From contig JANYDO010000158.1 in assembly GCA_025363605.1 (NCBI GenBank), positions 1 to 43,124 on the forward strand: a DNA stretch of 43,124 nucleotides, written 5' to 3'. This DNA comes from Candidatus Kapaibacterium sp. (GTDB lineage: Bacteria > Bacteroidota > Ignavibacteria > Kapaibacteriales > UBA4661). The first letter of the stretch is position 1. Every line of letters starts with the position of its first letter. The notes beneath the pieces are model-generated. The model was not told where the DNA came from. It saw nothing but the letters and a program-made list of their open reading frames with translations, and did no database searches. This document shows, one piece after another, positions 8,279 through 34,846 of this stretch. The position numbers and the translations under genes were made by a program.

Positions 8279-8284
8279 TTTTTT

Positions 8285-8475
8285 GACACGGATTTGAAAA
8301 GGATTTCGCAGATTACACGGATTTTTTTTGGACGAAATGCCAACAGCTGAAAATACTTACCATTATCCGTGAAATCCGTGTCATCTCTTCAAATCCGTGT
8401 TAAAATTTTTAACCTTTAACACAAAAAACTCCTCCATCCGTCTTTATCCGTCCTCATTCGTTACATCTGTGTCCC
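8285..8475. repeat. Word-repeat block with long imperfect hairpin (ACACGGAT / ATCCGTGT words)
   Basis: The convergent gap between the acyltransferase and sigma-factor genes is built from repeated words. The 5' side carries acacgga at 8286 and 8315; the 3' side carries atccgtg at 8365, 8374 and 8393. Together they can fold into a long imperfect hairpin. Related words (ccatccgtc, tatccgtc) continue to about 8475. The position would let it end transcription from both sides. Its word structure, rather than a compact GC stem with a T-run, sets it apart from an ordinary terminator. Confidence 0.75.
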
Positions 8476-17806: not shown

Positions 17807-18043
17807 GACCTATTATGGAGTAGTAATGGGTACAAAGTTAGAAACAATTTGTATGCAGCACAAGTGACCAAAAGTCATATTTTGCGAAAACAAGGATTTA
17901 TCGTATTTTCAAAACGTTGGTGTTGTTCATTGCGGAGAAAGAGGGCAAAGCCTTATTCTACCTTGTTGATATTGTGTGTATTGCTGACACCAAACGCTAT
18001 TAGGCAAACAAATCATTACATTCCCCACGCGTCACTTTTAGCA

Positions 18044-18922
18044 ATGTCTATGAGCTTACCAGTTGCACTTATTACCGGCGCATCCACCGGCATCGGCTTG
18101 GAATCTGCTCTTGCGCTTGCCTCGCACGGCTACCGCGTCTATGCTGGCATTCGGAATATGAATAATGCCGCAAAAATACTCACTCTTGCGGATGAACGTG
18201 GCTGCAAGGAAAATGTTCGCCCCGTCAAAATGGATGTTCTGAACGTCAACGAGACGACACTGGCGATACAGCGCATGATGACCGAAGAATCTCGCATTGA
18301 TGTCCTCATCAATAACGCGGGGCAAGGAATGGTGCGCAGTTTTGAGCAGGCATCCATGAAGGAAATCCACGACCTCTTTGACCTCAATTTCATGGGCAAT
18401 ATCCGCACCTTGCGGCAAGTCGTACCGATAATGCGCGAACAGGGCGGCGGGCGCATCATTGCGGTTTCGTCCGTGGGCGGTCTGGTCGGGCAACCGATGA
18501 ATGAGATTTATTGTGCGTCAAAATTTGCCATCGAAGGCTTGTACGAAAGCATGGCGACATACTTCAAACCCTACTTCAATATTGACATTACCATTATCGA
18601 ACCGGGCGCTGTGGCAACGGAGTTTGTCAATACCGTGATGAAAAATGTCCAAGCCACAGGCGGCTTCAAAGATGATGCCTACAAGCCTGTGCTGGACGAT
18701 TACCTGCGCACCCGCCAAGAACGAACCTCTTCGGGAGCATCGCAAACGCAAACACCCGCCGACATTGCAGAGGTGATTCTGCGCTGCGTCCAAGACCCCG
18801 CACCGCCCTTACGCACACGTACCTCCGACGGCGGCGAAAAATTCTGCGCACTCAAAACCTCCGCCGACCCCGACGGAACAACGTTGCAACAACAAATACG
18901 CTCACTCATGCTTGACAAGTAA
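18044..18922 (+). CDS. Short-chain dehydrogenase/reductase (classical SDR)
   Basis: The 292-residue protein has the Rossmann NAD(P) motif TGASTGIG (11-18), NNAG (90-93), and the catalytic residues Ser143, Tyr156 and Lys160 (SSVGGLVGQPMNEIYCASK). EPGAVAT (187-193) contacts the cofactor. It would oxidise or reduce an alcohol/carbonyl pair on an unknown substrate in the cytoplasm; the C-terminal 90 residues resemble those of SDRs acting on hydrophobic substrates. The ATG at 18044 gives a normal SDR N-terminus; the in-frame 65-residue upstream extension is basic, non-homologous sequence and is rejected. It diverges from the lipoprotein operon and is separated from the DUF1569 gene by a 240-base repeat-rich gap. 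Confidence 0.9.
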   Translation: MSMSLPVALITGASTGIGLESALALASHGYRVYAGIRNMNNAAKILTLADERGCKENVRPVKMDVLNVNETTLAIQRMMTEESRIDVLINNAGQGMVRSFEQASMKEIHDLFDLNFMGNIRTLRQVVPIMREQGGGRIIAVSSVGGLVGQPMNEIYCASKFAIEGLYESMATYFKPYFNIDITIIEPGAVATEFVNTVMKNVQATGGFKDDAYKPVLDDYLRTRQERTSSGASQTQTPADIAEVILRCVQDPAPPLRTRTSDGGEKFCALKTSADPDGTTLQQQIRSLMLDK

Positions 18923-19010
18923 TCACGATTGAGGTTCAATCTTTGTAACTAGCGACCAATGCCAAAATTTGCTTGACTTTATCATAGAAATCAGGTCTTG
19001 ATTTGGTAAC

Positions 19011-19107
19011 GCGGACTGTAAGGACTGGCGAGGACTGTAAGGACTCTATCAACCATTGGAAAACAAGATAAAGTCCTGACCAGTCCTCAAAAGTCATCCA
19101 AATCCGC
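19011..19107. repeat. Long imperfect hairpin built from GGACTGTAA-type words
   Basis: The 5' side reads gcggactgta, aggactggcg, aggactgtaa, ggact (19011-19045). The 3' side reads agtcctgaccagtcctcaaa and then tccgc, ending at 19107. Paired together they form a long imperfect hairpin with repeated words on each arm. It sits in the 240-base gap between the SDR and DUF1569 genes. The design matches the block at 8285-8475, but the words are different. Confidence 0.75.
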
Positions 19108-19162
19108 GCTCCCTGCTACAATAACCTAAATAATTGCCAATCTTTTTCAAACGATATTACCA

Positions 19163-19618
19163 ATGTCTCATCTTATCACGTTCTCCTCTCTCGACGAGGC
19201 TCTTCGCCGCATTGAAGACTTTGCCAAAGGCGGCATTGAGCCGAAATCAGGCGCTTGGTCGCTCTACAAGACGCTTTCACACGGAGCGCAAAGCATTGAG
19301 TTTTCACTCACGGGCTATCCGGCGCATAAATCCTCGCTATTCAAAGGTACTGCGGGAAAACTGGCATTGCATATTTTCCTTGCACGAGGCGCAATGTCGC
19401 ACGACATCACTATGCCCATTCCCGATGCTCCTGCCATTACCGAAGGAGGCGAAGCAATGCAAGGCTTTCTGCGCCTCCAAGAAGCCGTTCAGAAATTTTG
19501 GCATCACAACGGCGACTTCAAAGACCACTTCGCCTACGGTAAACTCACGAAGGCGCAATACGACAAAATTCAAGCACTCCACCTCGCCAATCACCTTTCC
19601 GAAGGCTTCAGACTATGA
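19163..19618 (+). CDS. DUF1569 family protein (DinB-like helical bundle)
   Basis: The 151-residue cytoplasmic protein matches DUF1569, a four-helix DinB-like family. It has WSLYKTLSHGAQSIEFSLTG near residues 32-51 and the C-terminal HFAYGKLTKAQYDKIQALHLANHL. Conserved histidines in such folds often bind a metal, but the activity of this family is unknown. The stop TGA overlaps the start of the 53-residue membrane-protein gene (ATGA), so the two are translationally linked and lead into the symporter gene. Confidence 0.85.
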   Translation: MSHLITFSSLDEALRRIEDFAKGGIEPKSGAWSLYKTLSHGAQSIEFSLTGYPAHKSSLFKGTAGKLALHIFLARGAMSHDITMPIPDAPAITEGGEAMQGFLRLQEAVQKFWHHNGDFKDHFAYGKLTKAQYDKIQALHLANHLSEGFRL

Positions 19619-19776
19619 GTAATCATGCGCCGTTGGAGGATGCTCAGCACGATGTATCGCAGGACAGCACAGCACCTGTTTTTTCATCGTGGCAAGCGTG
19701 GTATGGATTGGTGCTGGGCGTATTTGCTGCACTGGTGGGGCTAATGTACTGGTTTTCTCACGCTTTTGCGTCTTAA
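19615..19776 (+). CDS. 53-residue single-helix membrane protein preceding the sodium:solute symporter
   Basis: Begins MSNHAPLEDAQ and ends FSHAFAS. The N-terminal 24 residues are polar; one membrane helix (about 27-47, WQAWYGLVLGVFAALVGLMYW) is flanked by aromatic residues. The start overlaps the DUF1569 stop as ATGA, and the stop TAA is 25 bases before the symporter ATG, so it is enclosed in a tight operon. Short one-helix genes beside symporter genes occur in Bacteroidota and may encode accessory subunits; that role is inference. Its short length makes it easy to miss. Confidence 0.72.
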   Translation: MSNHAPLEDAQHDVSQDSTAPVFSSWQAWYGLVLGVFAALVGLMYWFSHAFAS

Positions 19777-23962: not shown

Positions 23963-24017
23963 TGGTAATATCGTTTGAAAAAGATTGGCAATTATTTAGG
24001 TTATTGTAGCAGGGAGC

Positions 24018-24114
24018 GCGGATTTGGATGACTTTTGAGGACTGGTCAGGACTTTATCTTGTTTTCCAATGGTTGATAGAGTCCTTACAGTCCTCGCCAG
24101 TCCTTACAGTCCGC
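24018..24114. repeat. Word-repeat hairpin (AGTCCT/GGACTGTAA family), mirror copy
   Basis: Mirror of 19011-19107 in the gap between the SDR and DUF1569 copies. Confidence 0.7.
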
Positions 24115-24202
24115 GTTACCAAATCAAGACCTGATTTCTATGATAAAGTCAAGCAAATTTTGGCATTGGTCGCTAGTTACAAAGATTGAACCTCAATCGT
24201 GA

Positions 24203-34649: not shown

Positions 34650-34840
34650 GGGACACAGATGTAACGAATGAGGACGGATAAAGACGGATGGAGGAGTTTT
34701 TTGTGTTAAAGGTTAAAAATTTTAACACGGATTTGAAGAGATGACACGGATTTCACGGATAATGGTAAGTATTTTCAGCTGTTGGCATTTCGTCCAAAAA
34801 AAATCCGTGTAATCTGCGAAATCCTTTTCAAATCCGTGTC
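34650..34840. repeat. ACACGGAT/ATCCGTGT word-repeat block, mirror copy
   Basis: Mirror of 8285-8475, between the convergent sigma-factor and acyltransferase copies. Confidence 0.7.
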
Positions 34841-34846
34841 AAAAAA

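Follow-up and report, generated by a model that had tools for sequence, protein, structure and literature searches.

A word-repeat hairpin in a Candidatus Kapaibacterium contig as the probable core of an old IS66-type MITE

Introduction

The window analysed here, a stretch of 43,124 nucleotides from contig JANYDO010000158.1 of a Candidatus Kapaibacterium assembly (GCA_025363605.1), contains an intergenic hairpin whose arms are built from repeated GGACT words, with both flanking genes on one strand. The question raised by this locus is what such a structure represents. A first-pass annotation of positions 19011-19107 had treated it as a candidate selected hairpin or small RNA. The hairpin is real; a free-standing selected RNA hairpin is not what 19011-19107 represents. 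The feature is larger than those coordinates, spanning 18937-19145, and its interpretation as a MITE is well supported. The hairpin is probably the palindromic centre of an IS66-type MITE of some age, and this word-repeat core is itself likely to have descended from an ORF-bearing word-repeat element.

Results

Structure of the hairpin

The four GGACT words reported for the 5' arm were confirmed in the window sequence, where they start at 19013, 19022, 19032 and 19041, and the outer pairing of the arms (CGCGGA/TCCGCG) was evident from both the sequence and the fold. The further statement that all four words face their complements on the 3' arm was correct for two of them, which are matched exactly, and incorrect for the other two (Table 1). 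The RNA fold of 18920-19165 gave a z-score of -3.87 and the DNA fold of 18945-19137 a z-score of -3.61; none of 200 shuffles was as good in either case. Within the genome from which the window comes (the source genome), the triple-GGACT pattern was confined to the hairpin and its mirror copy, with 2+2 places that overlap, compared with 0+2 for the reversed pattern. The 9-mer GGACTGTAA by itself showed no genome-wide enrichment (7+10 compared with 9+10 for the control).

The entire window is its own reverse complement with 0 mismatches, centred on 21562/21563, and each feature is present twice. Because of this perfect palindrome, the mirror copy of the element is not independent. Of 20 other contigs of the source genome, three consisted entirely of N and were left out; none of the remaining 17, all readable, was palindromic. 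The window palindrome is probably an assembly artefact.

Ends of the element and the site in relatives

The sequence CAATCTTT was the sole 8/8 direct repeat shared by the left zone (18926-19000) and the right zone (19106-19180). Since some 8/8 repeat arose anywhere in 177 of 2000 shuffles of these zones, the weight of CAATCTTT comes from the adjoining remnant of the terminal inverted repeat (TIR). Only GTAACT and an inner part of the TIR are left in the window copy; with both TIRs decayed and the left one split by approximately 40 nt, the placement of the ends is based on the duplication together with homology to other copies. The 193-bp element has no transposase ORF, and among ORFs of at least 80 aa only the first bases of 19134-19622 enter it. 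A PDDEXK_3 ORF was absent from between the arms, where the loop is only 26 nt.

Table 1. Coordinates of the element, its parts and its neighbours in the window.
Feature	Position	Strand	Basis
Upstream gene, short-chain dehydrogenase (PF00106)	17849..18922	+	E 4e-45
Left target-site duplication CAATCTTT	18937..18944	+	Zone comparison
IS66-type MITE, 193 bp, containing the word-repeat hairpin	18945..19137	+	Copies within the genus with homologous frame and core
Left terminal inverted repeat remnant GTAACT	18945..18950	+	Comparison with GTAACTGGTCAGGTCTTGATTTGG copies
About 40 nt apparently splitting the left TIR	18951-18990	+	Comparison with GTAACTGGTCAGGTCTTGATTTGG copies
Remainder of left TIR/frame TCAGGTCTTGATTTGG	18991..19006	+	Identical string in copies such as L137
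5' arm, four GGACT words at 9-10 nt spacing	19010..19045	+	Sequence, fold, copy alignment
Loop, 26 nt, differs among copies	19046..19071	+	Sequence, copy alignment
3' arm AGTCCTGACCAGTCCTCAAAAGTCATCCAAATCCGCG	19072..19108	+	Sequence, fold, copy alignment
3' arm words	AGTCCT 19072 and 19082 (exact); AGTCAT 19092; AAATCC 19100 (fourth position)
Right terminal inverted repeat, decayed, AACCTAAATAATTGC (family form GACCTGACCAGTTAC)	19123..19137	-	Sequence and copies
Right target-site duplication CAATCTTT	19138..19145	+	Zone comparison
Downstream gene, DUF1569 protein (PF07606)	19163..19618	+	E 2.1e-39
Mirror image of the element and duplications	23980-24188	-	Window palindrome

The distance from the dehydrogenase stop to the DUF1569 start is 240 nt, or 39 nt when the element and one repeat are subtracted. 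At the corresponding site of G396 there was a gap of 41 nt that lacked the hairpin, and the dehydrogenase gene there has a similar tail at its end; this site is rearranged, since the dehydrogenase match covers only 38 aa and most of the gene is missing. The family-A profile, of which the window copy is one of the seeds so that its own score arises by construction, had no match in the loci of five relatives that have the downstream gene (L120-L124). In three of these (L120, L122 and L124) the dehydrogenase and its preceding gene were both absent within the locus, and in L121 (G283) the preceding gene was present and the dehydrogenase absent. Because G396 is rearranged and the dehydrogenase is missing in the other four relatives, no clean empty site was seen.

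Dispersed copies share their ends and target duplications

A DNA search with positions 18500-19620 revealed copies of the hairpin region scattered through G275, a genome of the same genus, together with fragments in G397 and a further copy in the source genome. The arm pattern CGCGGATTTN{0,5}GAGGACT occurred 51 times in G275 and three times in G397 and was absent from the other six genomes of the genus; reversed controls gave 0. Across copies, the conserved core consisted of GAACGCGGATTTTGAGGACTGAAGAGGACTTTTGAGGAC, a variable loop and then GAGTCCTGACCAGTCCTCAAAAGTCCTCAAAATCCGCGTTC, in which the words pair and the intervening spacers are largely unpaired. The copies lay mostly outside genes, with four of 23 under an open frame of at least 150 aa compared to 276 of 345 control windows. 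In a phylum-wide scan, triple-GGACT matches were obtained in 104 of 395 genomes, a figure to be read beside a reversed control that also matched many genomes; G275 stood out (18+17, reversed 2+1). Spaced GGACT triplets were also abundant in G241 (210+128), G350 (67+94), G231 (33+11), G099 (18+19) and G212 (14+8), with controls of 0-2 per strand, and the places listed for G350 and G099 were simple tandem arrays.

Outside the core, the copies have GTAACTGGTCAGGTC in common. At one mismatch or fewer this sequence was found 147 times in G275, 74 times in G397, 73 times in G395, 17 times in G396, five times in G283 and twice in the source genome, compared with 0-3 per genome for reversed controls; no such match was present in G398 or G341. 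Twenty-eight distinct short elements bounded by GTAACTGGTCAGGTC-type ends (at most three mismatches, 90-420 bp apart) were assembled, a set that excludes any element containing another left end and in which at least one member (L176) joins an inner left end to an outer right end. Target duplications of 8 bp with at most one mismatch flanked 20 of the 28 elements (16 perfect and four with one mismatch), in comparison to four of 756 cross-paired controls. When the right flank was shifted, duplications were found in 0/28 elements at seven offsets and in 1/28 at the eighth. The flanking 8-bp repeat had two or more mismatches in 8/28 elements, and that of the second source-genome copy (L133) had three mismatches in eight positions.

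Link to an IS66 transposase

One of the two source-genome matches to GTAACTGGTCAGGTC (L289) is one end of the second GGACT copy. The other (L295, one mismatch) bounds a broken frame that matches PF03050, DDE_Tnp_IS66, with an E value of 3.8e-5 and a score of 23.7 bits against a Pfam cut-off of 23.1. Two shorter pieces of the source-genome transposase (30 and 35 aa) had no Pfam match, and the search yielded no full-length IS66 element bounded by both ends. According to the part of PMC11946415 available to us, IS66 elements have ends starting GTAAGCG and 8-bp repeats; one IS66-family TIR in the available part of PMC10017437 starts GTCTG, not GTAA, also with 8-nt repeats. The sequence traits of an IS66-type MITE were present: short length, no ORF, an 8-bp duplication, and GTAA-starting TIRs in common with an IS66 transposase element of the same genome. 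Taken together, the duplication-flanked 193-bp insertion, the dispersed TIR-bounded copies and the terminus at the IS66 frame indicate that the element is a MITE of IS66 type whose core consists of word repeats.

Different cores between the same ends

In self-complementarity, the interiors of 25 of the 28 elements exceeded at least 197 of 200 shuffles. When grouped by simple patterns, nine of these 25 cores had GGACT words, five GATGAT/CATGATT words and two CACGAAT words, and nine were GC-rich REP-like palindromes; these shares are biased, since 13 of the 28 elements are from loci chosen by similarity to GGACT or the hairpin and the other 15 from loci chosen by the TIR. The terminus GTAACTGGTCAGGT is common to elements whose cores are of the GGACT, GAAGATGAT, CACGAAT and REP-like kinds, mostly with 8-bp duplications. 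Nesting was observed in G275, where the L176 locus has an element with CAGATT/CATGATT words within the loop of a GGACT element, and in L151, where a GGACT arm is interrupted by a hairpin element that has another frame and CTAAA on either side. The remaining three of the 28 represent a 202-bp non-palindromic element of G395 with IS66-like ends and several copies (L287, L327 and L328).

A second hairpin frame, family B, was noted in G275 (L149, L151, L173 and L174). Its members have ends TACATGATTCTTGAAT and 5-bp repeats (CTAAA/TTTAG/CTAAG) and share the AACGCGG-type core. The family B duplications were partly convincing, with at most one mismatch in 8/13 compared to 27/156 cross pairs.

The window also contains a ACACGGAT word hairpin at 8282-8400 (mirror 34725-34843) with a loop of approximately 42 nt, and its words are the arm words of a source-genome GxxExxY gene on contig C536 (L010, L037 and L038). 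No TIR of the type described above was found in this block or in the source-genome CACGGAT loci scanned (L016-L038), except for a single string in L023 that had three mismatches and lay about 500 nt away from the words. Among the source-genome CACGGAT rows, a second arm with a score of at least 34 was present in only six of 19, which represent three elements; the others appeared single-armed. The two word-repeat blocks of the window, which the first-pass annotation had attributed to one generating process with several word families, are therefore alike in architecture, without a demonstrated common carrier. The broader idea was upheld in part, in that cores with different words share IS66-type ends and that both GGACT- and CACGGAT-type arms surround GxxExxY genes.

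Word-repeat arms around small genes

The inverted-arm score was at least 34 at nine of the ten GxxExxY genes of the genus when flanks of 250 nt were used; the tenth locus (L009) scored 27, and 40 with flanks of 350 nt. By comparison, none of 340 control windows from the 17 readable source-genome contigs reached 30. The GGACT profile matched the arm beside the source-genome gene at L009 (E 1.7e-4), and in L191 a GxxExxY gene adjoins a GCGGAC/GGACT arm that is followed by three ORF-less copies. A pair of IS66-type TIRs was found at 0/10 of the genus GxxExxY loci, and we therefore infer, rather than observe, that such cores were captured by IS66 ends.

Beyond the genus, the best 80 of at least 574 GxxExxY loci, spread over many phyla, were examined, and two of the 80 were dropped for short flanks. 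Arms scoring at least 34 were present at 42/78, compared to 0/468 control windows, and these arms often end like TAGAACRCRGAT. A panel of 26 loci chosen by hand, each ORF-less or with a single arm, served as the comparison for nine GxxExxY arms. The best match was within the same genome for four of the nine (G397 L188 with L286/L313/L334; G395 L190 with L314; source-genome L010 with its CACGGAT loci; source-genome L011, weakly) and in another genome for the other five, as with G283 L189 and source-genome loci.

At the S23-type (PF05635) loci of the phylum, arms scored at least 34 at 10/30 and at least 30 at 14/30, with 0/174 for controls, from which one locus containing N was left out. Scores of at least 34 were likewise obtained at four of the seven Y1_Tnp loci for which both flanks were present, and these carry their own repeats. 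The arms are thus not private to GxxExxY genes, which tempers the claim that the GxxExxY protein moves them. Many S23-type genes of the phylum (L089-L118) lie between word-repeat inverted arms with other words, such as GGTTCTGAGGTTCTGAGTCGCTAAG in L115. PF05635 had no match in the source genome or in 14 control genomes and matched 192 of 247 genomes of the phylum.

Discussion

Alternative explanations

A selected RNA hairpin at an intergenic site, acting as a terminator, riboregulator or small RNA, would suit the stable RNA fold, the position between two same-strand genes and the pairing of 96.1% of cells over 24 copies and 27 pairs. Two-sided change, however, was seen in only one of these 27 pairs, a level also reached in 252 of 500 shuffles, so that the selected hairpin or small RNA proposed in the initial annotation is not supported by covariation. 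Furthermore, Rfam covariance models gave 0 matches to the window at the gathering score, the copies sit at unrelated loci within transposon ends, and the profile was without a match at all five relatives' loci with the downstream gene. An RNA role is accordingly very unlikely.

It is unlikely that the core arrived by its own mobility, whether linked to GxxExxY or otherwise, and that the IS66-like ends are coincidental or later. The occurrence of the core in other frames, namely in family B with its other ends and 5-bp repeats and around GxxExxY genes that lack IS66-type TIRs, speaks for such mobility; against it, the 8-bp duplication in the window adjoins GTAACT, and copies with IS66 ends have the same frame, TCAGGTCTTGATTTGG. 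It is highly improbable that the feature is a REP/BIME element mobilised by a RAYT (Y1) transposase. The hairpin is a palindromic, intergenic and dispersed repeat, and Y1_Tnp matches were obtained in seven of the eight genus genomes, but the element measures approximately 150-190 bp with 8-bp duplications, and the flanks of seven Y1_Tnp loci showed other repeats by eye. A RAYT origin was rejected since the GGACT hairpin was present at none of 12 Y1_Tnp loci, isolated words occurring only in L197, L198, L200 and L203. As a separate observation, other repeat families lie on either side of Y1_Tnp genes of the genus (L197, L200, L202, L204 and L205), among them GTGGCACAGACATTCTTGTCTGTG; GAGGGTCTCGCT; GTGAGACCCTCAC.

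Proposed origin and significance

For the favoured interpretation, an IS66-type MITE, the following course of events may be proposed. An IS66-family transposase acting in trans would have recognised the 15-bp ends by binding and transposed the element, a non-coding passenger, with duplication of 8 bp at the target. The GGACT core appears to be one of a broader group of inverted arms made of repeated words, which at other sites surround a small ORF, either of S23 type or coding for GxxExxY, a protein of the PD-(D/E)XK superfamily. The core is likely to have descended from such ORF-bearing elements, and the window core would most plausibly be an ORF-less descendant captured between IS66 ends. 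If transcribed, the core would form a stem with periodic internal loops; no selection on the fold was found.

An odd hairpin thus becomes a transposon insertion. MITEs are usually pictured as internal deletions of one parent; here, in contrast to that picture, a single set of 15-bp transposon ends carries several unrelated palindromic cores. More tentatively, with the balance slightly against it, word-repeat hairpins might be a widespread, undescribed class of mobile element that encloses a GxxExxY or S23 protein, of which ORF-less copies are non-autonomous, and IS66 transposons of the genus might repeatedly have captured such cores and REP-like ones, which then spread as MITEs. In such a class the arms would consist of short words with a period of approximately 10 nt, the words pairing and the spacers not, and ORF-less copies like the window core may relate to ORF-bearing ones by analogy as REPs do to RAYTs. 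A testable idea that follows is that GxxExxY proteins are the partners of the word-repeat arms surrounding them.

In the literature searched, with most subscription journals outside its scope, no REP/MITE or IS66/MITE case of this kind was found, including in the available part of PMC9769881. The same search returned nothing on PDDEXK_3 and word-repeat strings and no functional study of GxxExxY proteins, which received only passing mention in the text available.

Comparison with known systems

The element resembles IS66-family MITEs in its GTAA-starting ends, 8-bp duplications, lack of an ORF and a terminus common to an IS66 transposase sequence of the same genome. It appears to differ in its interior, since those examined are each one of several unrelated palindromic cores (25/28) and seem not to be pieces of a parent IS. 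With REP/RAYT systems, as described in the available part of PMC3733652, it shares small, dispersed intergenic palindromes, and some other cores within these ends are REP-like; the GGACT element is, however, larger and has target duplications, and its core has no RAYT link. In the same source, REPs are given an unpaired GTAG or CGTC tag at one end. Many GxxExxY/PDDEXK_3 genes (PF13366) lie between inverted arms of this word-repeat kind, with GGACT words in the L191 arm, whereas the window hairpin has no ORF. Compared to the 23S rRNA intervening sequences with an S23 ORF (PF05635; available part of PMC4990558), the window hairpin differs in lying between two protein genes, in a genome that has no PF05635 match; the likeness is that, within the phylum, word-repeat inverted arms often enclose S23-type ORFs.
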